A stretch of DNA of 64,000 nt from assembly GCF_011764425.1 (NCBI RefSeq), contig NZ_BLPF01000001.1:434001-498000 (forward strand). Reading direction: 5' to 3'. A program made the translations under genes and the position numbers. The notes under the pieces were generated by a model that made no database searches, was not told where the DNA came from, and saw only the letters and a list, made by a program, of their open reading frames with translations. This DNA comes from Phytohabitans houttuyneae. Lineage in GTDB: Bacteria; Actinomycetota; Actinomycetes; Mycobacteriales; Micromonosporaceae. Positions within the stretch are counted from its first letter, which is position 1, and the number at the start of each line of letters is the position of its first letter. Of the stretch, positions 36,204-52,865 are shown piece after piece.

Positions 36204-36210
36204 GCGGACC

Positions 36211-36246
36211 TTGACGACCGAAGCTAACTGCATTAGCTTGTTAGCT
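36211..36246 (+). promoter_or_regulatory. Leaderless promoter with overlapping inverted repeat
   Basis: -35 TTGACG (36211-36216), 17-nt spacer, -10 TAGCTT (36234-36239), then 7 nt to ATG 36247. AGCTAAC (36222-36228) and GTTAGCT (36240-36246) form an inverted repeat around the -10 box, a likely repressor site. Confidence 0.65.
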
Positions 36247-36918: not shown

Positions 36919-36921
36919 CCT
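36916..36921 (+). promoter_or_regulatory. -10 box of XRE regulator gene
   Basis: TAGCCT 7 nt before ATG 36929, compatible with leaderless transcription. It overlaps the last codons of the preceding gene. Confidence 0.45.
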
Positions 36922-36928
36922 GGCGGGC

Positions 36929-38224
36929 ATGCAGAGGCCACGGACGACGTTCGGGGTGGAGCTGCGGCGACGCCGGCTCGCCGCCGGCCTGTCGCTGTCC
37001 GACCTCGCCGCCCTGGTGCACTACAGCCGCAGCCACCTCAGCCGGGTGGAGACCAGCGGCAAGCCACCGAGCCTCAGCCTCGCCCGGCGCTGCGACACCG
37101 AGCTGGGGGCCGACGGCGCGCTGACGAGGCTCGTCGAGCGCCCCACCGCCGGCCCGCCGAAGAGCACCGAGGTGTCCCCGGTGGACCGCTGGTGGATGGG
37201 GCTGTCGGCCAACGGCGGCGGCACGCTGATCGTCACCCATCCGGGCGAGCCGTGGGAGGGCGGCGAGGCGCTCGTCGCCAACTGGGCGCTCAGCGCGCAG
37301 GCCGCCACGGACGCGTCGGCGGACCGCGTGCTGGCCGGCTTCGAGGAGATGTTCCGCCAGATCAGGTCGGTCGGGCAGACGGTGCCGCCGGTCACGCTGC
37401 TGCCCCTGGTCATCGCGCACGCCCACGCGCTGCGGGTCCTGGCCAGCACCGCCGGCTCGGCGCAGCGCGGGCCGGTGCTGCTGCTGGCCGCACGGTTCGG
37501 GGAGTACGCGGGCTGGATGCACCAGGAGGCCGGCGACGACCGCGCGGCGGCCTGGTGGACCGACTGGGCGGTGGGCCTCGCCCGCGAGGTCGGTGACCGC
37601 GACATGACGCCGTACGCACTGGTCCGCCGCGCCCTCATCGCGCTCTACCAGGGCGACTCGGCCACGACGGTCGCGCTGGCCCAGCAGGCGCAGGCCGCCG
37701 ACTGTTCGGCCCGGGTGCGCGGGCTCGCCGCCCTGCGGGAGGCGCAGGGGCGGGCGATCAGCGCCGACTACGACGGCTGCATGTTCGCGCTGGAGCGGGC
37801 CGCCGCCCTGCTGGAGCCCAGCAACGGCCAGGAGCAGGTGCTCGGCTCGTGGACGGTGCCCGACCAGGTGGCCCTCGCCTCCGGCTGGTGCCTCTACGAC
37901 CTCGGCCGCCCGGTGGAGTCCGCCGAGATCCTGTCCCGGCAGCTGGCCGCGATCCCCGCGCACGCCGTCCGGGCCCGCGCCCGCTACGGCGCCCGGCTCG
38001 CGCTGGCCCACGCCGGCGGCAACGACGTCGAGCAGGCGTGCACGGTCGCAGCCGGCGTCCTCGACGCGATGCCCATGGTGCAGTCGGCCACCGTGCGCGC
38101 GGACGTCCGCGACCTCAGCCGGATGCTGGGCCGCTGGCGCGCAAACCCGACCGTGCGGGACCTGCTGCCCCGCTTCGCCGCGGCGCTCGCGCTGCCGGCG
38201 CCCGCCGCTACCCGAACGGGGTAG
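36929..38224 (+). CDS. XRE family regulator with helical C-terminal domain
   Basis: 431 residues. The HTH is at residues 8-60 (FGVELRRRRLAAGLSLSDLA, LVHYSRSHLSRVETSGKPPS). The rest is helical and TPR-like (ARFGEYAGWMHQEAGDDRAA, AWWTDWAVGLAREVGDRDM), the design of many actinomycete XRE regulators that respond to peptides or small molecules. It lies just before the TIR-containing operon and might control it, but the 164-bp gap with no shared signal makes this guesswork. Confidence 0.88.
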   Translation: MQRPRTTFGVELRRRRLAAGLSLSDLAALVHYSRSHLSRVETSGKPPSLSLARRCDTELGADGALTRLVERPTAGPPKSTEVSPVDRWWMGLSANGGGTLIVTHPGEPWEGGEALVANWALSAQAATDASADRVLAGFEEMFRQIRSVGQTVPPVTLLPLVIAHAHALRVLASTAGSAQRGPVLLLAARFGEYAGWMHQEAGDDRAAAWWTDWAVGLAREVGDRDMTPYALVRRALIALYQGDSATTVALAQQAQAADCSARVRGLAALREAQGRAISADYDGCMFALERAAALLEPSNGQEQVLGSWTVPDQVALASGWCLYDLGRPVESAEILSRQLAAIPAHAVRARARYGARLALAHAGGNDVEQACTVAAGVLDAMPMVQSATVRADVRDLSRMLGRWRANPTVRDLLPRFAAALALPAPAATRTG

Positions 38225-38388
38225 GCCGTACGACCCAGGCGGCTCCCGATCATCCGGTACACCGCGACGAACCGACCGTCCACCCTGTCTGTTGTCCATC
38301 CCAGGGGATACTGACAACGGCTTGTCCGCTCCCGCCCGCCATCGCAAGCTGTACGGCGACACGGCATCCCAGGGAGACGCGCTCGCGC

Positions 38389-39021
38389 ATGACGAAGATA
38401 TTCATCAGCTTCCGCAACGGTGACGAGAGCTTCGCCGCGGTGACCCTGGACGACCGGCTCTCGGCGCGTTTCGGCCCCGAAAGCGTCTTCCGCAGCAGCC
38501 GCTCCATCCCGGCGGGCACCGACTTCGAGCCGGTGCTGTGGCGCAGCCTCGGGCTCTGCTCGGTGGTGCTGGTCGTGATCGGTCCACATTGGCTCACCGG
38601 CCGGGCGGGCAACAACCGCCTGTGGGACCACGAAGACTTCGTCCGCCGGGAGGTGGCGCTCGCCCTGCGCCTGGGGCTGACGACGATTCCCGTCCTGGTC
38701 GGCGGGGCGCACATGCCCGGGCTGGGCGAGCTTCCGGCGGAGCTGGCCCCGCTCACCAGCCGGCAGTACCGGCGGATCGACGCGCGCAGCGCCGACGCGG
38801 ACGTGCGGGCCCTCGTCGAGGAGGTGGCGCGGGTGGTCGGCGACACCGGGCCGGCGGCGGCCGGCGCGTCCACAGTAGAGCCCGAAGCCCGGCCGCAGGG
38901 CAACAACCAGCGCTTCCGTACGGGCAACGCGGTCCAGGCCCGCGACGTGCACGGCGACCTGGTGATGGGCGACAAAGTGGACGGTCCGAAGATCGTCTTC
39001 GGGCCCGGAGGGCGGGCGTGA
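38389..39021 (+). CDS. TIR domain protein with C-terminal VHGD/GDKV tag
   Basis: 210 residues. The TIR domain covers ~1-135: KIFISFRNGDESFAAVTLDD, VVIGPHWLTG, and the helix HEDFVRREVALALRLG, where Glu88 occupies the place of the catalytic glutamate in NAD-cleaving TIRs. IPVLVGGAHMP is the following strand. The tail (GNNQRFRTGNAVQ, RDVHGDLVMGDKVDGPKI, 171-202) shares VHGD-x3-GDKV with the N-terminus of the next protein. First gene of the plus operon; its stop overlaps the next start (GTGA). A NAD-depleting effector or signal producer is likely by analogy. Confidence 0.9.
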   Translation: MTKIFISFRNGDESFAAVTLDDRLSARFGPESVFRSSRSIPAGTDFEPVLWRSLGLCSVVLVVIGPHWLTGRAGNNRLWDHEDFVRREVALALRLGLTTIPVLVGGAHMPGLGELPAELAPLTSRQYRRIDARSADADVRALVEEVARVVGDTGPAAAGASTVEPEARPQGNNQRFRTGNAVQARDVHGDLVMGDKVDGPKIVFGPGGRA

Positions 39022-41324
39022 CGGCACCGGCTCCCCCACCGGCGCCCACCGCGACCGCACCCGCCCCGAGCGCGCCCGCCGGCACCCCTCCGGCCGGAGC
39101 CGCCGCATCGCCCCCGGGCGGCGGCTCCGGCCCCGCCGACACCAAGCCCGCCGGCGCGCGGCCCGCGGCAGCCGCACCCGGCGAGGCGGTCGACGGGGTC
39201 GACGGCGGGTCCTGGGCCGAGCCGGGGCAGGCGACCTCCAGGCCGGGCGAGGGCACCGCGCGCAACGAGCACTGGCGCGCGGCGCGCACCGTCCACGGTG
39301 ACCAGATCGGCGGCGACAAGGTCGCCGGGCACAAGTTCGAGCTGCGGTTCGGCGACCGGACCGTGCCGGTGCGGGAGCTCTCCATCGACCTTGTCGAGCC
39401 GGTCCGGTACGCGTTCGTCGACCCGGACAACTGGTCGCAGCTCCTGCAGCGGTTTCGCCGCCAGCGCTCCGCCGTGATCCGGGGCCGCCCCGGCCACGGC
39501 AAGGACGCCGCCGCGATCCGGCTGCTCATCGGCGAGGTCGAGCGGGTGTACCACCTGGACCCGACGGTCGACGTCGCCCACCTCGCCGACTCGATCGCAG
39601 AGCAGGCCGAAAGCGTGGGCGGAGCGCGGGGTGGCATCGGCTTCCTGCTCTGCCAGCCGGACGGGGCCACCAAGCTGCGCGGCTTCACGTTCCACGCGCT
39701 GGAGATGGCGCTGGCCAAGGCGAACGCCCGCCTCGTGATCACCATCTCGCCCGGCCAGCTGGCGGCTGACCAGGACGTCGAGCCGTACGTGCTCGACCTG
39801 CCCGACCAGCAGGTCGACCGGCAGAAGGTCTTCGCCGGCCACCTGGCCTGGCGGTGCGGCGACGGGCTGGCCGACCGCCTGCTCGCCAGCGAGACAGTGA
39901 AAAGCCTCCTCGGCGAGCTCGACGAGGGCGAGGCGAGCTGCCACTCGGCCGCCGAGCTCGCGGCGGTGATCAGCTCGGAGTGCGACGACAGCGGCACCGT
40001 CGACGGTTTCCGGGTGCGCGAGCGCCGCCGGCGCCAGCACGACCAGGCGTTCGACCTGTGGTTCGACAGCCTGCGCGACGCCGAGGAGCGCAGCTTCGCG
40101 GTCGCGCTCGCGGTCCTCGACGGCCTGCCCTACGAGGACGTCACAGCCGCGTCCCGCCGCCTGCGCCGCAAGCTGGAGGTCACCCAGCACCTCGTCGTCT
40201 CGGGCGGCAAGCCCGAGCTGCGGATCGCCCGCAACGAGGCGCTGCGCACGCCGACCAACCGCCTGCTGGAAAGGCTGCGCGCGGTCGAGGTCGAGCAGCA
40301 GGTGCGGTACGCGTACGGCATGGTCCCGGTCCGCACCGTGCGGTACAAGGACCCCAGCTACCCCATCAAGGTGATCGAGCGCGTGTGGTGCCGGTACCAG
40401 ATCCAGCCCACCCTGCTGGAATGGCTCGGCGAGCTGATCGTGGAGCGTTCCGAGCCGGTGCGCATCTTCGCCGCCAGCACCCTCGGCGTGCTGTCCCGGT
40501 ACTCCTTCGACTACCTGTGGACGTACGCGCTCAACGGCTGGGCGAACAGCAAGGACTACCGGCTGCGCGAGGCGGTGGCGTACGCGCTGCGCGAGCCGTC
40601 CGGCGACAAGCAGCTCGCCGCCAGCGTCGGCACCATCGTCGGCGTGTGGTACGCCAACCGCGAGCAGCCCCGCGCCCAGGCGACCGCCGCCCGTGCCTAC
40701 GGCGCCGGCGCTGGCGGCCTCGACACCGCGACCGCGGTCGACCGCCTCGGGCGTCTGGCCACAGTGGACGACTACGCGGTGGCTGTGGCGATCGGAGACG
40801 CGCTGGCCGACCTCATCGTGGAGGACCCGGACCGCGTGGCGCCGATCGCCTGTGCCGGCCTGCTCTCCTGGTTTACCGACCGGCTCCGCTCCCGCCCGGC
40901 GCAGCTCGCCTTCCTGATCCTGGCCGACAGCCTGGTCACCTGGGAGCCGGACGGCGGCGGTGGCGAGACCCGCTGGCCGACGCTCCTGCACCTGGCCAGG
41001 ACCGCCGAGGCGCTGCGCGCCCCGCTGTTCGGCCTGTGGCGGCGGGCGCTCAGCGAAAACGTCCTGCACGACCAGGCCCGCGGGGTGCTCACCGGCTGGG
41101 CCGGGCTCGCCGAAGCCGACCCCGCGCAGCTCGACGTCCTGCTCCGCCTCTTCCGCGCGGTCGTGACGGTGCCGCGGGTGGAGCCGCGACTGCTCCGCAT
41201 CCTTTCCGCACTGGCCGCCGAGTGGGTGCGGCCGGACAACCTGACACCGCTGCCCCGCGCGCACCGGGCGGTCGACGCCCTGCTGACCCAGATCAGGCAC
41301 GACGCGGGGCACAACGGGGAGTAG
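39018..41324 (+). CDS. P-loop NTPase (STAND/AAA-like) with Pro-rich N-terminus and helical C-terminus
   Basis: 768 residues. Residues 1-80 are Pro/Ala-rich and probably disordered. Residues 91-103 (TVHGDQIGGDKVA) repeat the tag at the end of the TIR protein. The P-loop is GRPGHGKD at 156-163, with Asp in place of Ser/Thr after the lysine, which would weaken Mg coordination. LVITISPGQLAADQDVEPYV fits a sensor-1/post-Walker-B region. A winged-helix-like part follows (VALAVLDGLPYEDVTAASRR), then ~400 helical HEAT-like residues. It probably recognises a trigger and engages the TIR protein. Confidence 0.8.
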   Translation: MTAPAPPPAPTATAPAPSAPAGTPPAGAAASPPGGGSGPADTKPAGARPAAAAPGEAVDGVDGGSWAEPGQATSRPGEGTARNEHWRAARTVHGDQIGGDKVAGHKFELRFGDRTVPVRELSIDLVEPVRYAFVDPDNWSQLLQRFRRQRSAVIRGRPGHGKDAAAIRLLIGEVERVYHLDPTVDVAHLADSIAEQAESVGGARGGIGFLLCQPDGATKLRGFTFHALEMALAKANARLVITISPGQLAADQDVEPYVLDLPDQQVDRQKVFAGHLAWRCGDGLADRLLASETVKSLLGELDEGEASCHSAAELAAVISSECDDSGTVDGFRVRERRRRQHDQAFDLWFDSLRDAEERSFAVALAVLDGLPYEDVTAASRRLRRKLEVTQHLVVSGGKPELRIARNEALRTPTNRLLERLRAVEVEQQVRYAYGMVPVRTVRYKDPSYPIKVIERVWCRYQIQPTLLEWLGELIVERSEPVRIFAASTLGVLSRYSFDYLWTYALNGWANSKDYRLREAVAYALREPSGDKQLAASVGTIVGVWYANREQPRAQATAARAYGAGAGGLDTATAVDRLGRLATVDDYAVAVAIGDALADLIVEDPDRVAPIACAGLLSWFTDRLRSRPAQLAFLILADSLVTWEPDGGGGETRWPTLLHLARTAEALRAPLFGLWRRALSENVLHDQARGVLTGWAGLAEADPAQLDVLLRLFRAVVTVPRVEPRLLRILSALAAEWVRPDNLTPLPRAHRAVDALLTQIRHDAGHNGE

Positions 41325-41326
41325 CC

Positions 41327-43042
41327 ATGACCGAGACGATCTCGCTGTTGTTGAAGCAGGAGCCGGTGAAGCGGGTGACGCTGGCGCCCAGCCCGGCACG
41401 CGCGCCGTCCGTCGCCGTCGTGTACGCGCGGCGCGACGGCGACCTGGAGGTGCTCGACGGCGGCAAGCCGATGCGCTGGTCGGACCAGATGTTCACGAAG
41501 TACAGCACCCGGTACGAGGTGGACATCAGCGACCACCACGTCGACCTCAAGTTCGAGGGCGACACGGCGCTGCCCACCGAAGGCGACGTGTACCAGTTCC
41601 ACGCCACGTGCAGCGCCAACTTCCGGGTCACCGACCCGGCCGAAGTGGTCCGGCGCAACGTCCGCGACGGCGCGCCGCTGGTGCACGGGTACCTGCTGCG
41701 CATGTTCCGGGCGATCACCCGCCAGTACTCCATCGAGGAGGCGGAGGAGGCCGAGGCGGCGATCCACGCGCAGCTGCGCCGGGACACGCTGCTGCACGGC
41801 GGGATCACGCTGTACGCGGTGGCCGTCCGCCTGTCGCTGGACGAAGCGGGACGCAAGTACCTGCAGGACGTCGAGCAGGCCCGCCGCGACGAGAAGATCA
41901 AGGCGGCCCAGCACCACACGAACGTCAACGACGTCGCGCGGCAGAGCCAGCTCGACCTGCTCCAGCAGACCGGACAGCACCTGCTGCAGGACCGGGAGCG
42001 GGCGCTCCTTTCGGGCCAGTCGATGGACGCGGAGTCCCTGATCCGCCTGCACCTGCAGCGCAACCCCGGCGACACCGCCGGCGCGATGAAGATGCTTGCC
42101 GAGGTCGAGGACGCCAGGGAGGCCCAGCGGGTACGCGAGAACGAGCGCTGGGAGGGCCTGCTGGAGAAGCTGGCCAACAGCGGGATCGCGCAGCCGTCCG
42201 ACCTCACGCCGCTGCTGGACGCCGCGGTCCGCCACGTGGAGGGCTCGGGTCCGCCGATCCGGGCCACCGCCACCGTCCACTCACCGCAGCAGCCGCCGGA
42301 GCCCGCGGCGATCGGTTGGGACGCGCCGCTGGCGGGCGTACCGGCGCCGGAGGTCAGCATGGTCCCGCCGGCAGTGAACGCCAACGCGCTGGCCGCGCCG
42401 CCGAACCTCTGCCCGGTGTACGTGGTCGTCGACGAGTCCGAGGCCGCGTCGCCCTGGCTGGACCGGCTCAACGAGGCCGTCGGCGACCTCTACCGCGCGC
42501 TCGCCGGGCAGCCCCGCGACGCGGCTCCGCTGCGGCTCGCCGTGTGCGGGTTCGCCGAGGACGTCGCCGTGCGGGCCAAGCTGGCGGCGGTGGAGGCCGA
42601 TCCCCGGGTGCCGCGGCTCACCGGGCGGGGCCCGGCCAGCTACACCGCGCTGTTCGAGTGGCTCCGCGACCACGTCGCGGCCGACGCCGAGGCGCTGCGG
42701 GCCGAGCACCCCTCGGTCCGCCGGCCCCTGGTCGTGCTGCTCAGCGCCGGCACGCCGGCCGGCGTCGACGACTGGGCGCCCGCACACCGGCAACTGCTCG
42801 GCCAGCTCCGCCGGCCCGACATCGTCGCCTTCGGGTTCGGTGGCGCCGGCGAGGCCGCCGCGTCGTTCGCGCTGTTCCCGGAGTACGCGTTCACCGCCGA
42901 GGACGCTCCGGAAACCGCCGCCGACCGCTTCGCCACGTTTCTGCGCGGCTACCTGCTCGCCTGCGGGCAGGCCGCGCTCGCCGGCACGGAGAGCCCGCTG
43001 CCGGCGCCGGTGGGTTTCCGCCCGGCCGGCGGCCCGGCCTGA
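41327..43042 (+). CDS. SPFH-like / von Willebrand factor A fusion protein
   Basis: 571 residues. The first ~190 (YQFHATCSANFRVTDPAEVV, DGAPLVHGYLLRMFRAITRQ, LLHGGITLYAVAVRLSLDEA) resemble an SPFH/band-7 core without a membrane helix, followed by a charged coiled-coil (RKYLQDVEQARRDEKIKAAQ) and a C-terminal vWA domain. Its metal-site motif is DESEA in VYVVVDESEAASPWLDRL, near the DxSxS consensus. The vWA Thr and Asp sites are less clear (GRGPASYTALFEWL). Third gene of the plus operon, 2 bp after the NTPase stop, ending 7 bp from the convergent operon. Confidence 0.78.
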   Translation: MTETISLLLKQEPVKRVTLAPSPARAPSVAVVYARRDGDLEVLDGGKPMRWSDQMFTKYSTRYEVDISDHHVDLKFEGDTALPTEGDVYQFHATCSANFRVTDPAEVVRRNVRDGAPLVHGYLLRMFRAITRQYSIEEAEEAEAAIHAQLRRDTLLHGGITLYAVAVRLSLDEAGRKYLQDVEQARRDEKIKAAQHHTNVNDVARQSQLDLLQQTGQHLLQDRERALLSGQSMDAESLIRLHLQRNPGDTAGAMKMLAEVEDAREAQRVRENERWEGLLEKLANSGIAQPSDLTPLLDAAVRHVEGSGPPIRATATVHSPQQPPEPAAIGWDAPLAGVPAPEVSMVPPAVNANALAAPPNLCPVYVVVDESEAASPWLDRLNEAVGDLYRALAGQPRDAAPLRLAVCGFAEDVAVRAKLAAVEADPRVPRLTGRGPASYTALFEWLRDHVAADAEALRAEHPSVRRPLVVLLSAGTPAGVDDWAPAHRQLLGQLRRPDIVAFGFGGAGEAAASFALFPEYAFTAEDAPETAADRFATFLRGYLLACGQAALAGTESPLPAPVGFRPAGGPA

Positions 43043-43049
43043 CGCGGAG

Positions 43050-45083
43050 TCACGGCTGGAGCCGGGCCTCCAGCACCGCGGCCGCCAGCCGGCCGGCGCC
43101 GAGCGCGAGCACGACCGGCCCGAGCAGCGCCGGCACCCAGCCGAGCGCGAAGAGCACCCAGAGCAGCGCCCCAAGCGCCGGCACCGCGGCCGCGCCCACG
43201 ACGGCGGCGGCGAACAGCGTGCGCGTCGCCGCGGTGGCGAGCGCGCCCGCGCACAGCGACAGCACCATGACCAGCCAGAGCAGCAGCCAGGCCGAGACCC
43301 ACGACGGCGGTCCGGGCACCCGCGGCAGTGCCCCGGCGGTCGCCACGCCGGCGGGGACGGCGAGCACCGCGCACACCGCGCCGAAGACCACCAGCTTGGC
43401 GGCCACGAGCGCACCCGCGCCGAACCCGGCCCGGCGGTCGCGGGCCAGCGCCGCGCGCTCGGTCACCAGGTCGGCGCGGCCGACGCTCAGGCCGGTGAGG
43501 ACCGCGACCGCGAGCGGCCCGGCCGGACCGTCGAGCAGCAGGGCGGCGAGGATCGCGCCGACCACCGGCAGCAGCGGCAACGCGGCGAGCGCACCGGGCC
43601 CACGGCGCCAGAAGAGCAGCCACTGCCGCGCCACCGCTGCGGGCATGCCGGCGAGCGCGCCGTCGGGCTGGATCACGGTTTCGCACGCGGGAGGGGACGA
43701 CGGCGGCAGCGGCCGCACCCCGCCGCCGGGGTCGCCGCCGGAGAGGTCCAGGGTGGCGACCCACTCGCCCCAGGTGAGGTCCGGCTGGTTCGCCAGCGGC
43801 TGGCCGGGCGGGCCGGCGAACCGCGTCCGGCCCTGTGCGTCGAGTACGACGACGAGGTCCGCGCCGTCCAGGCCGCCGACCGACCCGGTGGCCACGACGA
43901 CGGTGCAGTTGGTGTCGCGGCTCACGGTCCGCAGCCGCGACAGGAGGTCGCTGTCCCGGCCGATGTCGTGCGATGTCCGCGACTGCGGTACGAGCAGCAG
44001 GCCGGGGCGCTGCACCACCTCGGCCGCGACCGACAGGCGCTTGCGCTGCGGCTCGCTGAGCGTGCGCACCCACTTGTCGGCCTCGGCCTCCAGCCCCAGC
44101 CAGGACAGCGCCTCCTCGACAAGCGCCGCCACGCGCGCCGCCTCGCCCGCGCCGGAGCGCAGCGCCGCGGCGTAGCCGAGCACCTCCCGCACGGTCAGCG
44201 TGCCGTGCAGGTCGTCGGTGGCCGGTACGCAGCGCACGGCGGGATCGCCGCGACGGCTGGACCCGCCGACCCGGACGGTGCCGCTGTCCGGACGGTGCGC
44301 GCCCGCGACGAGGCCGAGCAGCATCTGCGGGCTCGCCTCGTTCTGGCCGACGACGGCGACGAAGTCACCGGCGGGCACCGACAGCGTCACGTTGTCCAGC
44401 AGCGCCCGGCCGCCGCGGCGCACGGTGACGCCGGCCAGCTCCACACCGAGCGCCCGGCCGCCGCGGCGCCCGCCCCGCCCGGGCACCGTCACCGTCCGGC
44501 GCCCGACCATGAAGCGGCTGCCGGGCTCGCGCACCGTCCAGTCGACGGGCTCGCCGTCCACGTACACCTTGCCGTTGTGCGCGGTCACCCACCACGCACC
44601 GCGGGCGTCCACCTCGACCCGGGCGTGGTCCGGCCGTACCGAGGGGTCGTCGATGACGAGGTCGGCGTCGGTGCCGGGCGGGCCGATGACCCGCTGGCGG
44701 GTGGCGGTGCCCGGCCCGGCGCCGCCGCCCCCGTGCGCGGGCCGGCTGTAGTCCTTTGTGGACCGTGGGGCCGGTCGCTCCTGACGGGGCGCCGGCTCGC
44801 TGTACGGCTCGCCGGCCAGGCGCACCTCGGCCCGGTCCCCCGGCAGCGCCACGTCCCGCTCGGTGACCGGGCGGCCGTTGATCCGCAGCTCGCGCGGGCA
44901 CTCCGAGGGTCCGGCGTAGAACGACCACGGACCGAACTCGCACACGAAGTGCCCGACGCACACCTCGATGCTCGGCGGGTTGGCCGATACCCGCAGGCGG
45001 TTTGCGTCCATCCAGAGGTAGTGCACGTCCTGCTCGGGCAGGCGCCGCTCGGCACCTCCCAGGATCAGCAGCAGCGAGCCCAC
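43050..45083 (-). CDS. FHA domain fused to an ABC transporter with degenerate ATPase motifs
   Basis: 677 residues, GTG 45083 with AAGGAG upstream. An FHA-like domain lies at ~131-200 (RVIGPPGTDADLVIDDPSVR, HARVEVDARGAWWVTAHNGK, DGEPV), able to bind phosphothreonine. An ABCG-type nucleotide domain follows (~215-400), but Walker A reads GQNEASPQ without lysine, the signature reads LSEPQRKRLS and Walker B LLLVPQ lacks Asp-Glu. A six-helix membrane domain closes the protein. It is likely a phospho-dependent membrane scaffold rather than a pump. Last gene of the minus operon. Confidence 0.82.
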   Translation of the reverse strand: MGSLLLILGGAERRLPEQDVHYLWMDANRLRVSANPPSIEVCVGHFVCEFGPWSFYAGPSECPRELRINGRPVTERDVALPGDRAEVRLAGEPYSEPAPRQERPAPRSTKDYSRPAHGGGGAGPGTATRQRVIGPPGTDADLVIDDPSVRPDHARVEVDARGAWWVTAHNGKVYVDGEPVDWTVREPGSRFMVGRRTVTVPGRGGRRGGRALGVELAGVTVRRGGRALLDNVTLSVPAGDFVAVVGQNEASPQMLLGLVAGAHRPDSGTVRVGGSSRRGDPAVRCVPATDDLHGTLTVREVLGYAAALRSGAGEAARVAALVEEALSWLGLEAEADKWVRTLSEPQRKRLSVAAEVVQRPGLLLVPQSRTSHDIGRDSDLLSRLRTVSRDTNCTVVVATGSVGGLDGADLVVVLDAQGRTRFAGPPGQPLANQPDLTWGEWVATLDLSGGDPGGGVRPLPPSSPPACETVIQPDGALAGMPAAVARQWLLFWRRGPGALAALPLLPVVGAILAALLLDGPAGPLAVAVLTGLSVGRADLVTERAALARDRRAGFGAGALVAAKLVVFGAVCAVLAVPAGVATAGALPRVPGPPSWVSAWLLLWLVMVLSLCAGALATAATRTLFAAAVVGAAAVPALGALLWVLFALGWVPALLGPVVLALGAGRLAAAVLEARLQP

Positions 45084-45108
45084 CGCGCTCCTTCCGGCCC
45101 CGACCTGG

Positions 45109-46253
45109 TCAGGGCGCACCTCCTTGGACCAGCAACGACAGGACCGCGCAGGTGGCCAGGACCGCGACCGCGACGAACGCGATGAGCCGCAGCGGCGGCT
45201 CGCGGCGCCGGGCGTCCTGCGCCGGCCCGCGTCCGGTGTCGCCCAGCGGCGGCGCGGGTGCGGGCGGGAGCGCCGGTTGCCGGTACTGCGCGGGCAACCA
45301 TCCACGCGTCTGTGTGGACATGACGACCTGCCGCCGGCGCTCGGGCATCGGCAGGGTCTGCGGGAGGGTCGGCTGGGGGCCCGCTGCATGACCGGCGCCG
45401 TGCCGGTCCAGGTCCGCACCCAGCGGTCGGCCAGCCGGCGCCACTCCGCCACCTCGAACGGGTCGAGCTTGCTCGTGCGGCGCAGCAGGTCCGCGGGGCC
45501 GTCGGCGACCAGGCGCCTGAGCTTGTCCATCGGCGGATCCATCAGGCCGAACTGGTCGAGCAGCAGCCAGATCGCCAGCCACGCCAGGCGGCACAGGTCG
45601 GTGCGGCGGTCCGCCCTGTCACTGCGCGGCAGGAGGGACATGAGGTAGCCCGGAGCGGCCGCCGGGCTTACCTCACCCCACGGTCCCATCATCGCGTCGC
45701 AGTCCACGTAGTACACGCGCTGGCCGTCCAGTGTGGACAGGATGTTGAGCTCGCGGAGGTCGTTGACGACCACGTTGTGGTCGTGAAACCACAGCAGGGC
45801 CTCGGCGGCGTGGCCGAGCGCCAGGCACTTCACCTGGAGCGAGGCTCCGGTCCGGACCTGCCGGTCCGCCTTGTAGTGCTGGAGGTGGGCGATCGTCCGG
45901 GGCGTCTCGGCGCCGTCGATGCGGTCGAGCTGGAAGAACTCGCGCGCCGCGAAGGGCAGCAGCACGCCCTCCAGGATGCCGCGCTGGCGCACGCGGTACC
46001 GGGGCCACGCCGCGATCGCGTCGAGGTGGTCGCGATCGTGCCGGGCCAGCCCGTCACGCCACGCGATGAGCCCGCCGAGAGCGTGCTGCTGCGCTCCGGT
46101 GCGGAACTCGACCGAGTACTGCTTGAACACGTACTCCACGCCGCGCAGCCGGCACCGCCACAGCGTGGAGTTGCCGGCGTCGGCCCATGCCAGCCGTTCG
46201 AGCCCGCTCAGCTCGGCGAGCTCCACCCAGTGGTCGTCGACTATCTGATCCAC
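45109..46253 (-). CDS. Protein kinase-like protein with C-terminal membrane anchor (frameshifted)
   Basis: About 380 residues. Kinase hallmarks: Lys44 in VEYVFKQY, catalytic loop VVNDLRELN with Asp165 and Asn170, and VDCD (184-187) in place of DFG. DPFEVAEWRRLADRWVRTWT ends the kinase domain. A one-base loss at the run 45375-45383 throws the frame into the next gene, giving a false 1067-residue fusion. In the correct frame the protein continues through a Pro-rich linker (GWLPAQYRQPALPPAPAPPL) to one membrane helix (LRLIAFVAVAVLATCAVLSL) and stops at 45109. GTG 46253 overlaps the phosphatase gene. Confidence 0.78.
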
Positions 46254-47347
46254 ACCGCCACAACCGCCCTGTCGTCAGTCCAGTAGTCGTCGACGAAGTC
46301 GACCTGAGCCAGGTACTCCACCGGGGACGGCGGCGCCTTCCACCGCCCGGCCAGCTCCCGCGCCAGCGGCGAGCCGTCGCCGCCGAGCGCGCCGGCGAAC
46401 CCGTCGCTGGCCAGCACGAGCACCGCGCCGGCCGGCAGCCGCTGCGGGCGGCCGCGCTTGAGCCGGTGCCGGGGCAGCTGCCGGGTGACGTTTTCCGCGT
46501 CGCCGCGGCGCTCGTGATGCAGCGCGTGCCAGCCGCCGCCGTGCAGCACCCACGCCTCGGAGTCGCCGACCCCCCAGGTCGTCACCACCGCGCCGCCCGC
46601 CGCCGGGCGTACCTCGGCCAGCACCAGGGTTGTCGCGCCGTCGACGTCCTGCGCGACCATGTGGTCCGCGAGCTGGCCGGTGACCCGGTCGAGCATGTGC
46701 TCGACGTCGTCGCCGGGATCGAGCCGCTCGCCCTGGTCCATCGCGTGCCCCACCACCCAGCGGGCGACGTAGCCGGAGTCGACCATCGAGCCGAGCCCGT
46801 CGGCGACGGCGACGAGCAGGGACTCGCGCCGCTGGTTCCAGACGACGCCGGCGGCGTCGTCGCCCGGTACCCCGTCGAAGGCGTGGCTCGCCCCGCGCAT
46901 CGCGGCGGCCCGCACCACGAAGCGGCCGCCGCGGGCCTCGCAGGCGCCGTGGTCGACCGCGCGCCCCCAGACGCCGGCGGTCAGGACCGGTGCGACGAGC
47001 TTCGGCTCGACCGGCCCGCGGCTCCGCTCGGAGAGCACCATCGGGCGGACATCGCCCTCGGAGGCCGGGGTTGCAGCCGCTCCGGAACGCCACGGCAGGC
47101 GGGCCCATCGCGGGAGCCGGGGCCGCCGGGGAGCCCGGACCGGCTCGTCCCGGAGGCGCTCACCCCCGCCGGCCGGCCGCCGGGCGCGACCGGTGGCCGT
47201 GACCTCCTCGCCGACCTTGAGGTGCTGGACGTTCGCGCTCCTGGTCCGTGCCTTCGCCAGGGCCGCGAACGCGAGGAGGATGCAGGTCGCGGCGACCACG
47301 ATGACGGTCACCGTGGCGGTGGACGCGCCCTGCGCGGCCTCAGCCAT
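46241..47347 (-). CDS. PP2C-type protein phosphatase with N-terminal membrane helix
   Basis: 368 residues. A membrane helix (ATVTVIVVAATCILLAFAAL) precedes a basic linker and the phosphatase domain. Metal-binding aspartates are seen in GDDAAGVVW, LLVAVADGLGSMVDSGYVAR, LVLASDGFAGALGGDG and DDYWTDDRAVVAVW. It should reverse phosphorylation by the kinase encoded next. It overlaps the kinase gene by 13 bp and the vWA gene by 8 bp, so the three are made together. Confidence 0.9.
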   Translation of the reverse strand: MAEAAQGASTATVTVIVVAATCILLAFAALAKARTRSANVQHLKVGEEVTATGRARRPAGGGERLRDEPVRAPRRPRLPRWARLPWRSGAAATPASEGDVRPMVLSERSRGPVEPKLVAPVLTAGVWGRAVDHGACEARGGRFVVRAAAMRGASHAFDGVPGDDAAGVVWNQRRESLLVAVADGLGSMVDSGYVARWVVGHAMDQGERLDPGDDVEHMLDRVTGQLADHMVAQDVDGATTLVLAEVRPAAGGAVVTTWGVGDSEAWVLHGGGWHALHHERRGDAENVTRQLPRHRLKRGRPQRLPAGAVLVLASDGFAGALGGDGSPLARELAGRWKAPPSPVEYLAQVDFVDDYWTDDRAVVAVWIR

Positions 47348-48110
47348 GGCGCGGCCCCTCGATGCGCCGCATCCCGACCGGCGTCCGGATGGTCAGCAGG
47401 CCGGTGCTCGCGGACGTGGAGATGCTGCTCTTGATCGCGTCGACCACGCTCTCGGACAGCTCCTTCGGGTTGGTCCGCCGGTCCGCGATGAACGCGTTGC
47501 GGCGCCCGTCCTCGCTGCCGGTGGCCAGGTGCCACAGGATGTCCCGCTCGGCTCCCGGCAGCCCGATCGCCGCCAGCCGCGCCCCGACCGGCTCGTCGGT
47601 GAGCCGCCGGCGGTGCCCCATCCACTCGTCCATGCTCTGGTTGCGCTCCCGCGCGAACGGCCGCCCGTCGGTGACGAAGAAGATCCACGGGCGGGCGACG
47701 TCCACCGTGTACCCGTCGCGCATCCGGCTCTGCTGCACCGCCCGCACGTCCTTGCGGTGCTGGTCGGCCAGGAAGCGCAGGACCCGGGCGTAGTCGGTGC
47801 CGTAGCCGAGCCGCGGCGGCCGAATCGCCGCCGGCTGGTCCAGCGACGTCATCGGCCGCAGGATCTCCGGCTCGTCGTTGAAGGCGAGCACGCTCACCGA
47901 GGCGAGCTTGTTGGTGACCGGATGGTCGGCCAGCTCGCGCAGCATGCGCGGGATGAGCCGCACGAAGTGCGCCTGCGAGCCGCCGTCCTGCGGCGCCTCG
48001 GGCCAGGGGCGGCGCATGGACTCCGAGGTGTCCAGGACCACGTAGATCAGGTACGTGCGGACCTTCGCGGTCCGCGCGCCGTCGGACGGCGCCGCCGACT
48101 GGTACGTCAC
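47340..48110 (-). CDS. von Willebrand factor A domain protein (TerY-like)
   Basis: 256 residues, essentially one vWA domain. The MIDAS motif DxSxS is perfect: YVVLDTSESMRRPW. The Thr and Asp sites fit LGYGTDYARVL and WIFFVTDGRPFARER. Its size and position before a PP2C phosphatase and a kinase match TerY of the TerY-P triad, where it is thought to assemble substrates. It overlaps DUF4407 by 4 nt and the phosphatase by 8 nt. Confidence 0.9.
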   Translation of the reverse strand: MTYQSAAPSDGARTAKVRTYLIYVVLDTSESMRRPWPEAPQDGGSQAHFVRLIPRMLRELADHPVTNKLASVSVLAFNDEPEILRPMTSLDQPAAIRPPRLGYGTDYARVLRFLADQHRKDVRAVQQSRMRDGYTVDVARPWIFFVTDGRPFARERNQSMDEWMGHRRRLTDEPVGARLAAIGLPGAERDILWHLATGSEDGRRNAFIADRRTNPKELSESVVDAIKSSISTSASTGLLTIRTPVGMRRIEGPRHG

Positions 48111-49576
48111 CAGCGGCCTCCCGGCATGTCACGGTGGGAGATCTCCTGGGTGGGCAGGTCGGCCACGTCGGCCATGTCCACCACGCGGTGGTCGTGCGCG
48201 TGCGGGTCCCAGCTCGGGCTCGCCGGCCCGGTCGCGGTGTTCAGCAGGTGTTCCTCCAAGGCGTCTATCAGCTCGCTGCGCCGCTCGTCGTGGTTGGCGA
48301 GCTGGATGCGGCTCGCCTCGTTTATGCGTTCGAGCTCGGTCCGGTACTGCCGGTCGGTGCGGCGCCGCACGAGGTCGCCGTACCGCGACTGCCGGTCGAG
48401 GTCCTCGCTGGAGCGCAGCTGCCGCACGCGCTCCTGGTGGCGCAGCTCGTCCTCGAGGATCCGGTCGTACGACGTAGTGCCGCTGAGCACCTTGAGGATC
48501 ACCGGCAGCGCGTCGATGAGGATGAAGAAGATCCGGATCGCCCACTGGGTGATCTTGACGAACCCGTTGCTGTCGACAAGCTCGTCCAGCGCCCGGAAGC
48601 GCTCCAGGATGCCCACCGGCCCCTGCCGGCCGCGTACCTCGGCGAGCTCCTCCTGGATGACCTCGTTGATCAGGACGCCGTAGTTGTTGCGGGCCTTGCC
48701 GATGCGCTCGTCGAGGGCGGCGAGCTGCGTGTTCAGGTCGGCGAGCTTCTTGCCGTTGTCACCAATCTTGTGGTCGTTGCGGAACCGGTCGGCCTCGGTG
48801 CGCAGCCGCTTGCAGTTCGGGCCCTCGCCCCGCCGGCCGGTCAGGCCCGGTCCGGGCGTGCCGTTGCACTCGCGGCGTGCCTTCTCCTCCAGCGCCGCGT
48901 ACGCCTCGGCGTCGTCGCCCACCACCGCTTTGAGGTCGGTCACCTGCTTCTGCACCGCGTCGCGCTGGGCCTGCAGCGCCTGCGGCGACTCCCCGCCGAG
49001 CGAGCGGCGGAAGGGCTCGCAGCCCGGCTCGTTGACCTTCGGACTGGACGCCTCGGGAGTGCCCGGGATGGGGTTGCAGGTGCGCAGCGCGCCCTCCCGG
49101 TCACTCACCTCCTGCTGCCGGTCCTTGGCCACCTTTTCGGTGATCGCGGTGTTGTAGATGCCCAGCAGCAGCGGCTCGGCCACGATCACACCGAGCGCGA
49201 TGGAGAGCAGCACGCGCGGCAGGATCTTGCGGGCCGCCCGCCCCACCTGCCCGACCGAGGTGGACGACATCAGCCAGCGGTCGATGCTGAGGATGAACAG
49301 GCCCCAGATCGGCACGGCGAACACGATGAACGGCTGGAAGCCGTCGAAGACGAAGTAGAGCGCGGCCGCCATCGAGAGCATGGCCATGACGGCGGTGCCG
49401 ACCACCACGCCGCCCATCGACGTGTACCGCGCCCGCTCGCTGGGCACGTGCGCGAGCACGTCCTCCCGTACGCCGGTGGCCAGGCGGAGCACCCGGCCCA
49501 GTCCCCAGCGCGCCGGCCTCGCCGGTGGCGGCTCGAGTGACCCGATCGCGCCCGGGTCGATGCCTTGCGCTGTCAT
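48107..49576 (-). CDS. DUF4407 membrane protein with coiled-coil
   Basis: 489 residues. Three membrane helices at the start (MGGVVVGTAVMAMLSMAAAL, FIVFAVPIWGLFILSIDRWL, VLLSIALGVIVAEPLLLGIY) precede a long charged, coiled-coil-prone segment with six or seven Cys (RTCNPIPG, PGCEPFRRS, RRECNG, GPNCKRL), then a fourth helix (AIRIFFILIDALPVILKVLS) and a cytoplasmic helical tail. The SIDRWLMSS motif and overall layout match DUF4407. The function is unknown; it would give the phospho-signalling proteins a membrane platform. ATG 49576 overlaps the gene before it by 4 nt. Confidence 0.85.
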   Translation of the reverse strand: MTAQGIDPGAIGSLEPPPARPARWGLGRVLRLATGVREDVLAHVPSERARYTSMGGVVVGTAVMAMLSMAAALYFVFDGFQPFIVFAVPIWGLFILSIDRWLMSSTSVGQVGRAARKILPRVLLSIALGVIVAEPLLLGIYNTAITEKVAKDRQQEVSDREGALRTCNPIPGTPEASSPKVNEPGCEPFRRSLGGESPQALQAQRDAVQKQVTDLKAVVGDDAEAYAALEEKARRECNGTPGPGLTGRRGEGPNCKRLRTEADRFRNDHKIGDNGKKLADLNTQLAALDERIGKARNNYGVLINEVIQEELAEVRGRQGPVGILERFRALDELVDSNGFVKITQWAIRIFFILIDALPVILKVLSGTTSYDRILEDELRHQERVRQLRSSEDLDRQSRYGDLVRRRTDRQYRTELERINEASRIQLANHDERRSELIDALEEHLLNTATGPASPSWDPHAHDHRVVDMADVADLPTQEISHRDMPGGRW

Positions 49577-50313
49577 TCCCGCTCGTCTCCGTCCGGTGAA
49601 TAGGTGCCGTACCCGTCGCGCGGCCGGCCGTTGCCGTGTCCGTCGCCGAACAGGTCGCGCGTGCCGGGGTCGTACGGCTCGCTCTGCTCGGCCGACTGCG
49701 GCTGCCCGACCGTCCACCCGCCGTCGTGGTGGATCGCGAGCGTGACGTCGACGAGCCGCACGCGCATGCCGGGGATGTCGGGCGGCTCCAGCTCGTTGCG
49801 CGCGATGGTGCGGGCCAGGATCCGCTGCGAGACCTCGGGGTTGCGGACCACGTCGTCGCGGGCGCCGAGCATGCGCAGCTTGGGGTCTCCGAGCAGGTAC
49901 TCCAGCAGCTCCGGGCGCACGTCCCAGCAGCCGGCCGTGAGCACCTGCACCGGGTTGTGGACCTTGCAGTTGTAGCTGGCGCGCAGGGCGAGCCGGTACT
50001 CCGGGTTGATCGACGGCAGGATCGCCACCGCGGGCACCACCTGTGCCCGGGTCAGCACCACCGCGACCATGGTCGCCTTGACCACGACCTCCGACATCAG
50101 CATCTTGGGACCGGACGGCGCGACGGCGAACTGCTCGTTCGTCTGAAACACGTGCACCGATCCGCCGACCAGCTCGGGCAGGTCGTCGGAGCGGCGACGG
50201 GGCGTCCGGAAGAGCCGGCCCGGCACCGGGGTCAACGACGCCGACTCGACCACCGGAAACCGCACATCCGTCTGCATGAGGTCGAAACCGGAGGAGTCCT
50301 CCAGGAACGACAC
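49573..50313 (-). CDS. SPFH-like domain protein
   Basis: 246 residues, GTG 50313; ATG 50278 is possible. The core (YRLALRASYNCKVHNPVQVL, TAGCWDVRPELLEYLLGDPK, IPGMRVRLVDVTLAIHHDGG) follows the same strand/helix order as the SPFH-like part of the 41327-43042 protein, suggesting common descent. It has no membrane helix and ends in a Gly/Asp-rich tail (DLFGDGHGNGRPRDGYGTYS). First gene of the minus operon. SPFH proteins usually form oligomeric rings at membranes. Confidence 0.65.
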   Translation of the reverse strand: MSFLEDSSGFDLMQTDVRFPVVESASLTPVPGRLFRTPRRRSDDLPELVGGSVHVFQTNEQFAVAPSGPKMLMSEVVVKATMVAVVLTRAQVVPAVAILPSINPEYRLALRASYNCKVHNPVQVLTAGCWDVRPELLEYLLGDPKLRMLGARDDVVRNPEVSQRILARTIARNELEPPDIPGMRVRLVDVTLAIHHDGGWTVGQPQSAEQSEPYDPGTRDLFGDGHGNGRPRDGYGTYSPDGDERE

Positions 50314-50637
50314 AGCCAAACCCCTATCTCTCCACAAGAGACGTCGTTGGAATATGTGCGCGAAGCCACGTCACTGTGTGCCTTCGGTAGGCAGGGCAGG
50401 GCGCGGTCATGCGGGCGCCGACCCTCCGTACGCCCTCAAGCTAGCCAGCTGCCGAAGCGCCAACCAGCGGTTGTCCGTACGGTCGCCACATGGACAACAG
50501 GCACGGACGGCTGGCCGCAGCAGGCGATCGCGCTCCCGACAGTCCAAATCGGATCGCCGATCATCCATCAGATTCCGCGTATCGAGGTCACCCGCGCGAG
50601 TGCTTCTCACGTTGCGGGAGCGGGCGGCGCCGGCTTG
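50314..50637. other. 324-bp geneless region upstream of the minus operon
   Basis: It lies between the GntR stop and the first gene of the DUF4407/kinase operon and must hold that operon's promoter. I see no convincing -35/-10 pair, repeat or small gene. Confidence 0.5.
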
Positions 50638-51315
50638 TCAGTCCACTGTGGTCGGAAAGTCGACAGTCAGCGCGCGCTGGAGGTCCTTGCGCGTGCTGGC
50701 CACGTGGGTCCGGCCCAGCCGCTCGGCTTCGGCGGCGTCCCGGCGGCGCAGCGCGTCGACGATCGCGCGGTGGTCGGACAGCGACGCCGCGCGGCGGGTG
50801 GGTGCGACCGCGGAGAAGTAGAACCGCGCGCGCAGGCTCAGCGAGCGCACGAAGCCGGCCATGAGGTCGTTCTGCGAGCAGGCCGCGACCGCGATGTGAA
50901 ACTCCGCGTTGAGCGCGGCGAGCACCACCGGCTCCGCGGCGGCGGCCTGGCGGGCCAGGATCTCGTCGAGCGTGGCCAGCTGCTCGGCGGTGCGGCGCTC
51001 GGCCGCCATCGCGGTCGTGCGCCCCTCCAGCTCCAGCCGCGCCTCGAAGAGGTCGGCCAGCTCCCGCTCCGAGCGCTCCCGCACAAAGGCGCCCAGGTGC
51101 GGGCGGTAGTCGATCCAGCCGTCGGCGCCGAGCGAGCGCAGCGCCTCGCGGACCGGGATGTGGCTGACGCCGAGCTGCTTGGCGAGCGCGTCCGCGTTGA
51201 GATGGGTGCCGGGTGGGAGGGTGCCGGCCAGGATCGCCTCGACCAGGGTGTCGCGGACGCGGTCGCCGGTGTTGCCCGGGGCACGCTCGACCGTGGGCAG
51301 CTTGGTCAGGCTCAC
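50638..51315 (-). CDS. GntR family regulator, FCD type
   Basis: 225 residues. Winged-helix domain: RVRDTLVEAILAGTLPPGTH, LNADALAKQLGVSHIPVREA, LRSLGADGWIDYRPHLGAFV. The C-terminal FCD domain has the usual metal-ligand pattern (ARLELEGRTTAMAAERRTAE, NAEFHIAVAACSQNDLMAGF, SDHRAIVDALRRRDAAEAER). It is divergent from the BMP-type transporter operon, with two CCTATAGG palindromes in the 77-bp gap, so it most likely controls that operon in response to the transported compound or its product. Confidence 0.93.
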   Translation of the reverse strand: MSLTKLPTVERAPGNTGDRVRDTLVEAILAGTLPPGTHLNADALAKQLGVSHIPVREALRSLGADGWIDYRPHLGAFVRERSERELADLFEARLELEGRTTAMAAERRTAEQLATLDEILARQAAAAEPVVLAALNAEFHIAVAACSQNDLMAGFVRSLSLRARFYFSAVAPTRRAASLSDHRAIVDALRRRDAAEAERLGRTHVASTRKDLQRALTVDFPTTVD

Positions 51316-51323
51316 GCCGACAT

Positions 51324-51331
51324 CCTATAGG
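51324..51331. promoter_or_regulatory. GntR operator candidate, site 1
   Basis: CCTATAGG, 9 bp upstream of the GntR start. The same palindrome recurs beside the transporter start. Confidence 0.6.
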
Positions 51332-51378
51332 GCACTGAGAGCTTTACGGCCGCGATACAGGGCTGTAACGAACCAGCC

Positions 51379-51390
51379 GTCCTATAGGAC
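51379..51390. promoter_or_regulatory. GntR operator candidate, site 2
   Basis: GTCCTATAGGAC, a perfect 12-bp palindrome ending 2 bp before ATG 51393. It would cover the transcription start or ribosome site of the transporter operon. Confidence 0.65.
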
Positions 51391-51392
51391 GC

Positions 51393-52865
51393 ATGCAGTC
51401 AACAGCGGTAGCCGCGGCGACGCCCCTGCTCGCCGTACGGGGGCTCACGTGCCGGTTCGGCGACGTGGTCGCGAACGACGCCGTGGACTTCGAGGTGGCA
51501 CCGGGCGAGGTGCACGCCGTCCTCGGCGAGAACGGCGCCGGCAAGAGCACGCTGATGAAGCTGATCTACGGCGTCTACCGGCCGGACGCCGGTGAGGTGC
51601 GGGTCGACGGCGTACCCACGCCGCTCGGCTCGCCGGCCGCCGCCCGCGCGGCCGGCATCGGAATGGTCTTCCAGGACATGCGGCTGATCCCGGCCCTGAG
51701 CGTGGCGGAGAACATCGCGCTGGCGCTCCCGCGGCGGCGGGGGATCGCCCGCGCGGTCGCCGAGGCGAGCCGGCGGTACGGGCTGGCCGTGCGCCCGGCG
51801 GCACTGGTCCGCGACCTCTCCATCGGCGAACGGCAGCGGGTGGAGATCCTCAAGGTGCTGATGAGCGGGGCGCGCCTGCTCATCCTCGACGAGCCGACCA
51901 GCGTCCTCGCGCCACAGGAGGTGGACGCGCTCTTCGCCGCGATGCGGTCGCTGCGGGCGGCCGGGCTCTCGCTCGTGATCATCACGCACAAGCTCGGCGA
52001 GGCGCGGGCCATCGCCGACCGCGTGACGGTGCTGCGCGGCGGCCGCGTGGTGCTGCGCAACGCCGACCCGTCCGCCCACACGGACGCGGACCTCGTCGAG
52101 GCGATGGTGGGGCGCGCGGTACCGGCCCTGCCCCGTGAGCGGACCCGGCACACCGCGCGGGAGTCCATCGTGGAGCTGCGCGGGGTGGGCGCGGGACGTG
52201 CCCTGCGCGGAGTCGACCTCGACCTGCACCCGGGCGAGCTTGTCGGTGTCGCGGGCGTGGCGGGCAGCGGCCAGCGGGAGCTGTGCGAGGTGATCCTGGG
52301 GCTGCGCAAGGCGAGCACCGGCGCGGTACGGCTCGGCGGCAGGCCGCTGCACGGGCCTCGGCAGGCGCTTGCGGCCGGCGCCGTCGGCGTGCCCGAGGAC
52401 CCGATCAGCGACGCCGTGGTGCCCGGCCTCACCGTGCTGGAACACTTCGCGCTGAGCGCGCGCCGGCTCGACTGGCGGGCCGTGGGCGCCGAAGCCGACC
52501 ACCGGGACGCCAAGGCGCGGCTGCGGATGGCGGCCCACCAGCGCGTGCTGGGCGAGCTGTCCGGCGGCAACGTCCAGCGGGTCGTGCTCACCCGGGCACT
52601 GGGCGCGCCGGCGGCGGTGGTCGTCGCCGCGTACCCGAGCCGGGGCCTCGACATCGCCACCACCCGGCGCACCCAGCAGCTCCTGCTCGAACAGCGTGAC
52701 GCGGGCGCGGCCGTGCTCGTCGTGTCCGAGGACCTGGACGAGCTGCTGTCCATCTCGGACCGCATCGCCGTGCTGCACGACGGCCACCTCGCCGGAATCG
52801 TGCGGCCGGGCGAGACCGACCGGTACGCGATCGGCCGGCTGATGCTGGGAGGCGACCCGCAATGA
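51393..52865 (+). CDS. ABC importer ATPase, BMP/nucleoside type (two ATPase domains)
   Basis: 490 residues with two nucleotide-binding domains. The first is canonical: Walker [11 protein letters not shown], signature [15 protein letters not shown], Walker [12 protein letters not shown]. The second has the altered Walker [13 protein letters not shown] and signature [16 protein letters not shown], as is normal for the sugar/nucleoside (CUT2-like) class. It energises the two permeases that follow, overlapping the first by 4 nt. Confidence 0.93.

Follow-up and report, generated by a model that had tools for sequence, protein, structure and literature searches.

What do nine genes packed into two facing operons do, and do they act together? 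The question is raised by positions 38389–50313 of a 64,000-nt stretch of Phytohabitans houttuyneae DNA (contig NZ_BLPF01000001.1, from a genome of 11.3 Mb in five contigs); this whole stretch is called the window, and all positions given here are those of the window. The plus operon encodes a TIR protein, a P-loop NTPase and an SPFH-vWA protein, and the minus operon encodes an SPFH protein, a DUF4407 protein, a vWA protein, a PP2C phosphatase, a kinase and an FHA-ABC protein. The operons converge with their ends 7 bp apart, and adjacent genes overlap by 4–13 bp or are spaced by 2 bp, the exception being the kinase tail and the FHA-ABC gene, which are 25 bp apart. This tight layout had been proposed in a first-pass annotation of the same DNA and is confirmed by open reading frames (ORFs), codon-usage gene calls and family searches. 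TIR_2, DUF4407, PP2C_2, FHA and ABC_tran score above their Pfam cut-offs and VWA_2 slightly below its own; direct Pfam support is wanting for three labels, namely kinase, SPFH and NTPase. We hold with high confidence that the nine genes constitute one system. On balance, the cluster is best read as a single membrane-tethered, NLR-like signalosome, which would work as described below. An immune role is likely, and the outcome would probably be abortive defence.

The central evidence lies at the junction of the first two genes. The TIR gene (38389..39021, plus strand; 210 aa) carries TIR_2 at residues 4–141 (Pfam, 1.6e-7) and E88 in the sequence DFVRREV, a residue that we take to be the catalytic Glu position of TIR NADases. 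The start of the NTPase gene (39018..41324, plus strand; 768 aa) overlaps it by 4 bp. The TIR protein ends in a tail (NAVQARDVHGDLVMGDKVDG..., 38926..39018), which matches the N-terminal region of the NTPase (z 7.3, p 0.001), where the motif AARTVHGDQIGGDKVAGHKFELRFGD occupies residues 88–113 (39279..39356), upstream of the P-loop. When the last 53 TIR residues were searched against the window's own genome, the best non-self match was again the N-terminal region of the NTPase, with an E of 0.10 that is not significant alone.

The same comparison was extended to 40 loci of the family, each time taking the 60 C-terminal residues encoded immediately before the NTPase gene and the N-terminal region of the NTPase itself. 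Seven loci were dropped as the upstream gene was uncalled, leaving 33 pairs; L079, L080, L143 and L040–L045 lay outside the test. After centring by row and column, the mean own-pair score was 21.0 with a permutation standard deviation of 1.48, and none of 20,000 permutations reached it. The own NTPase ranked first for 18 of the 33 effector tails (20 with 45-residue tails), and 19 of the 33 pairs scored better than composition shuffles at p<=0.01. The control, a stretch from the interior of these effectors, gave p 0.23. The tails are short, G/D/V-rich and differ from locus to locus, and at the level of sequence the C-terminal tail of an effector matches the N-terminal region of its own-locus NTPase far better than those of other loci. 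It is very likely that TIR and NTPase pair through these tails. That the pairing works by amyloid templating is possible, a little short of an even chance.

How far is this arrangement kept elsewhere? Scanning genome contigs with the DUF4407 protein led to one relative, Dactylosporangium sucinum, in which the full set of nine genes recurs, likewise as two convergent operons, with an extra cyclase-like effector gene before the TIR gene. Protein identity to the window is 46–68% (best segments, nine genes). In other actinobacteria single operons hold these modules, with DUF4407 or PP2C-kinase-vWA coming after effector-NTPase-SPFH. Of 200 genomes from the order, 12 had an NTPase match (weak and partial in two), as had 32 of 246 from the class; the window's genome is counted in both. 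From these NTPase searches alone, 41 loci were fetched at length (9 + 32), leaving aside some weak matches, two from the order and three from the class; some genomes have several loci (G347 three, G299 and G363 two each). SPFH lies within 1.5 kb of the NTPase in 34 of the 41. DUF4407 lies within 10 kb in six, for which a rough chance estimate of 0.0008 per locus gives P ~1e-12, and the full triad of vWA, PP2C and kinase is found in four by hidden Markov model (HMM) and additionally in L082, where Pfam picked out PP2C and vWA.

A quick maximum-likelihood tree, built from 44 NTPases without L043, L143 and the duplicate L039, groups the window with D. sucinum, then with L117 and then with L118–L120, forming a clade of six with an SH-aLRT of 98. 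The triad is present in five of the six, and in the sixth, L117, a vWA gene stands shortly before the contig end. In L118–L120, the PP2C, kinase and vWA genes follow SPFH in one operon. Along the tree, DUF4407 changes four times, the triad twice (L082 not being scored as triad) and the effector type five times. From this it appears that the window combines two forms of a common toolkit, the triad and DUF4407 both standing in the convergent operon.

The effector slot is changeable. It holds a cyclase-like protein in 29 of the 41 NTPase loci, TIR in seven and neither in five. One of these five encodes a nucleoside phosphorylase (L077:8362–9276; PNP_UDP_1, 4e-19), which carries a matched tail of its own. 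Although none of the four cyclase-like proteins scanned matched Pfam, their profile matches class III cyclases in the PDB (Ma1120, E 3.3e-6) and two Asp-containing motifs are kept. They are termed Pycsar-like only, because none of 13 matched a PADLOC model (whether PADLOC includes PycC models was unchecked). PycTM scored above cut-off in six of 17 neighbouring proteins scanned, and a profile built from those six was run over the fetched regions. With it, PycTM was detected at 17 of 33 cyclase loci, never more than 5.1 kb from the NTPase (nine on the same strand, eight on the opposite one), at none of nine TIR loci and at none of six others. The cyclase versus TIR comparison gives a Fisher p of 0.006 for loci that are not independent by descent, and D. 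sucinum was counted among the nine TIR loci though it also has a cyclase-like effector. This segregation would make sense if a cyclase depends on a responder in the membrane and a TIR is an output in its own right. The first-pass annotation had suggested that the response is perhaps NAD depletion; with 29 cyclase-like loci to seven TIR loci, NAD depletion can be at most one output of the family. For the window itself, an NAD-consuming output is fairly likely, since the TIR fold and E88 favour an NADase.

Several further arrangements were seen around these effectors. In L125 and L129 the operon continues with PycTM and a tubulin-like protein (PF13809), and a large vWA protein was also recognised in L125, the one of the two loci where this protein was scanned; this is a further variety. 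L057:13932–15483 has a cyclase-like gene beside PycTM, with NTPase and SPFH not detected, and resembles a plain Pycsar-like pair. Upstream of the window's TIR gene, a helix-turn-helix protein (36956–38224, HTH_31) ends ~160 bp ahead, and D. sucinum encodes a second TIR protein of 873 aa (L085:7723–11573) directly after a gene with a start like that of the HTH_31 protein.

The SPFH proteins and DUF4407 would give the system its place at the membrane. The third plus-strand gene (41327..43042) encodes an SPFH-like domain, a coiled coil and, from residue 363, a vWA-like domain recognised by HMM, which has a degenerate MIDAS (DESEA). A second SPFH-like protein of 246 aa (49573..50313, minus strand) is a member of the same SPFH family profile. 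When this 44-member family was compared with 19 genuine Band_7 sequences by hhalign (19 of 20 loci were used, as one yielded no sequence), the probability was 89.6 with an E of 1.9e-6 over 120 columns, and six control families gave an E of 0.2 or worse. No direct Pfam Band_7 match at E<=0.1 was obtained in 22 family members, and a PDB sequence search with the SPFH profile gave no significant match.

The DUF4407 protein (48107..49576, minus strand; 489 aa; Pfam 6.7e-67) had matches in 35 of the 200 order genomes, including that of the window. Outside the window, six loci had an E below 1e-60. In five of these (L040 and L042–L045) NTPase and SPFH lie directly upstream, preceded in four by a cyclase-like gene; in the sixth (L041, genome G171) the contig starts 1.1 kb before SPFH, so that the upstream side cannot be judged, and PP2C or kinase was not detected on that 10.4-kb contig. 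Among 14 weaker loci fetched at length (L046–L059), L048 is the one with an NTPase. A DUF4407 profile run over the 246 class genomes gave six matches below 1e-140, namely the window and five loci at 1.3–1.4 kb from an NTPase, and 23 matches with an E of 1e-73 to 1e-59, none of which is near an NTPase match on the same contig (several of these genomes are drafts). This gap in E-values is partly by construction because the profile includes those five rows. More distant DUF4407 genes form other neighbourhoods. At L047 and L058, in genomes of family f16, they are paired, with starts 6–9 kb apart and with NTPase, SPFH and triad not detected nearby; the order search matched DUF4407 in 22 f16 genomes. 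Near DUF4407 genes of a more remote branch, L052, L053 and L054 have PP2C and kinase genes, accompanied in the latter two by a recognised vWA; NTPase was not detected there.

The minus strand also carries three contiguous genes for vWA, PP2C and kinase. The vWA protein (47340..48110; VWA_2 8.2e-5) keeps its MIDAS (DTSES). The PP2C phosphatase (46241..47347; PP2C_2 1.3e-17) has an N-terminal hydrophobic segment and the motifs DGLG, GD, SDG and DD, which presumably are its metal sites. The kinase was recognised by a profile of 11 rows that matches Ser/Thr kinases in the PDB (E 1.4e-12); within the family K44 is nearly invariant and D165, N170 and D184 are invariant. Naming the set a TerY-P-type triad, as had been done from the outset, is thus supported by the families and by the contiguity of the genes. 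In PADLOC no TerY-P model was listed for the window ORFs, nor for the kinase set in the 25 families displayed out of 30, the TerY-P content of its library being unchecked. It is reasonably likely that the triad serves as trigger control.

The kinase gene (45109..46253), labelled kinase-TM in the first-pass annotation, is frameshifted relative to D. sucinum. The kinase domain runs from 46253 to ~45400 and the linker and transmembrane (TM) tail lie in another frame, with MSTQ at 45321, the TM segment from 45189 and a stop that ends at 45109. The switch falls between ~45400 and 45321, and D. sucinum has one 387-aa gene at this place. The frameshift may reflect a true mutation or a fault in the assembly. 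In the window the kinase frame stays open into FHA-ABC; a fused kinase-FHA-ABC protein of 1067 aa was considered and ruled out, as D. sucinum encodes the two parts in separate genes and the codon pattern changes from one to the other.

The last minus-strand gene (43050..45083) encodes FHA (Pfam 9.1e-5), an ABC ATPase (ABC_tran 5.9e-10) and an ABC2-type membrane region (ABC2_membrane 0.0085, below cut-off). Its label as a pseudo-ABC protein was right, for an alignment shows that Walker A and Walker B are degenerate (GQNEASPQM and LLLVPQSR). Neither motif survives in the window or in D. sucinum, and both are intact in G204 (L061) and G171 (L041), so that intact motifs occur only where the TIR half is absent or unseen, a comparison of two versus two that are not independent. 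As the loss is confined to full-set loci, it suggests that transport may have been given up when FHA-ABC joined the larger system. Rv1747-type exporters likewise unite FHA, ABC ATPase and ABC2-type membrane region in a single protein encoded near a Ser/Thr kinase; the proteins of the window and D. sucinum differ in having lost Walker A and B, as an active exporter would not. We infer that FHA-ABC acts as a phosphopeptide-reading membrane anchor. The FHA-ABC gene of the solitary minus operon in G204 (L061:8549–10851) is in two frames despite its intact Walker motifs.

How might these parts work together? The NTPase, which has HEAT-like C-terminal repeats, would be the sensor or switch, kept at the membrane by the SPFH proteins and DUF4407. 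Once it is activated, its N-terminal motif would assemble and engage, perhaps template, the matching C-terminal tail of TIR. TIR would thereby be clustered and activated, and either NAD+ would be consumed or an NAD-derived signal made, leading to growth arrest. The triad would set the trigger by phosphorylation, which the FHA domain of the pseudo-ABC membrane protein would read. In most relatives, the NTPase-SPFH chassis would instead act on a tail-matched cyclase-like enzyme, often near PycTM, giving another output from the same switch.

Some findings weigh against this signalosome reading, and they bear also on its alternatives. In G204, of the same genus, SPFH-DUF4407-vWA-PP2C-kinase-FHA-ABC stands alone in an assembly of one contig that is 93% complete by estimate, and the NTPase profile found no match in the whole of that genome. 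Because it is found alone there, the minus operon is a separable module. Could the two operons, then, be independent and face each other by chance? A shorter form of the minus operon on the 10.4-kb contig of G171 points the same way, as does the fact that most of the 41 NTPase loci lack DUF4407 and the triad. Chance is nevertheless very improbable, since the two-operon set is kept in D. sucinum at the divergence given above, the same modules share single operons on several branches and all five judgeable nearest DUF4407 relatives have NTPase and SPFH directly upstream. The earlier proposal that both halves form one system therefore stands in part: they are kept together in D. sucinum and their modules share operons elsewhere, but the minus operon is not obligate. 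A Ter-type stress system of the classical kind, with the triad serving TerD-like proteins and the TIR operon as a rider, has in its favour the identity of the triad itself. It is the least probable of the explanations, for none of ten window proteins, to which the search for Ter genes was confined, has a TerD-type match in Pfam, and the triad's recurrent neighbours are SPFH, NTPase and DUF4407.

Other difficulties concern the switch and its tails. The Walker A Lys, present in the window's Walker A-like sequence GRPGHGKD (at 39483, residue 156), is kept among nine aligned NTPases only in the window and D. sucinum, six having Arg and one Gly there, which makes ATP switching doubtful across the family. 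AlphaFold2 models from two-row alignments had a mean pLDDT of 46 for SPFH-vWA and 39 for the NTPase, too poor for fold tests. Nine of the 33 tail pairs are without a match (p>0.1 versus own shuffles), one being L124, whose upstream gene encodes a methyltransferase that is probably not an effector, and the second tailed effector of D. sucinum ranks its own NTPase ninth of 33. Since its kinase gene is frameshifted, the window copy may also be partly broken. Moreover, the tails could be an ordinary beta-clip or beta-solenoid interface of a ready-made complex, still within one system and with no amyloid templating. The data consist of matched, short, G/D/V-rich tails, and matching cannot separate templating from binding; against this stands the layout, as an effector C-end and the N-end of a multi-domain NTPase in adjacent or overlapping genes is the one described for BASS in sections of PMC7889193. 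According to the part of PMC8086366 that deals with peptides, those of BASS3, a BASS3-like archaeal NLR and fungal sigma aggregated amyloid-like and a fourth did not, none being from this NTPase family. We regard the plain interface as rather unlikely. Somewhat less probable again is that the cluster regulates membrane stress or development in filamentous actinobacteria instead of serving phage defence. The NTPase has one weak match among plasmids and none among phages, and the SPFH proteins suggest membrane upkeep. A stable place is suggested by L121, L123 and L126, where a cyclase-NTPase-SPFH operon lies between genes that we recognised by eye, and take to be, rpoC (1299 aa) and rpsL/rpsG/fusA. 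The patchy distribution of the NTPase, the swapping of TIR, cyclase-like and nucleoside phosphorylase effectors and the PycTM neighbours are, on the other hand, marks of immune systems.

Which described system comes closest to the proposed signalosome? The amyloid signalosomes of bacterial NLRs known as BASS (sections of PMC7889193, PMC8086366 and PMC12261475) share with the window a similar short motif at the effector C-end and the receptor N-end, adjacent or overlapping genes and a TIR effector; passages in PMC7889193 place such motifs at NLR N-termini and at the C-termini of effectors, TIR included, encoded by adjacent genes. The window differs in that its NTPase is not a canonical NACHT or NB-ARC protein by Pfam. 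Neither model matched any of nine family members, so that they fall outside the canonical NLRs; nSTAND3 was weak in three of the nine (best E 0.0044), HEAT_2 was found in four and is below cut-off in the window, and a PDB sequence search with the NTPase profile gave no significant match. The window also adds SPFH, DUF4407 and the phosphorylation triad, and the tails of the family vary by locus. The TerY-P triad, reported active against T7-like phages in part of PMC7699616, likewise consists of neighbouring genes for vWA, PP2C and Ser/Thr kinase, their products carrying hydrophobic or TM segments (sections of PMC7699616 and PMC7159879), whereas the window joins it to effector-NTPase-SPFH and to DUF4407/FHA-pseudo-ABC. 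A kinase-PP2C-vWA theme linked to GAP1-N2 GTPases, in the relevant section of PMC7159879, is the nearest literature match to the set. A Pfam scan of the cluster proteins found no AAA or GTPase, the partner type of MoxR and GAP1-N2 systems (no GAP1-N2 model was run). Pycsar resembles the cluster's relatives, which pair a class III cyclase-like enzyme with a nearby PycTM, and it also includes TIR-bearing receptors (passages in PMC11224242). The window differs, as positions 34001–54000 hold no PycC-like cyclase (by the family HMM) or PycTM and its TIR protein is TIR_2 only by Pfam, and the relatives differ in that their PADLOC-unmatched cyclases carry tails matching the NTPase. Thoeris shares a TIR effector, with a weak partial match to the ThsB and ThcB4 models, but the ThcB4 score is 27.6 versus a cut-off of 220 bits and none of the eight ORFs scanned has a ThsA-type match. 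Thoeris, Pycsar, Ter and MoxR systems were all weighed for the window and not adopted. The first-pass annotation knew of no described system with this full set, and the open-access literature searched gave no paper that has it either; the matched tails, the link to cyclase and PycTM and the kinase frameshift were overlooked in that annotation.

The cluster ties amyloid signalling motifs, Pycsar-type cyclase and PycTM, TIR enzymes, the TerY-P triad and SPFH scaffolds to one NTPase family, which has matches in 32 of the 246 class genomes sampled. These strands had so far been described apart. Tentatively, these loci may represent a widespread, unnamed actinobacterial immune chassis of NTPase and SPFH, into which enzymes (TIR, cyclase-like, nucleoside phosphorylase) would be plugged by locus-specific, prion-like address tails, and which would be armed by a kinase-phosphatase-vWA switch together with a dead, phosphorylation-reading ABC protein. 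The co-varying tails allow a direct test of effector-receptor specificity beyond canonical NLRs. The repeated swap of TIR versus cyclase-with-PycTM suggests the part that TIR plays in the logic of the system, and DUF4407, like the NTPase family, is given a functional context.

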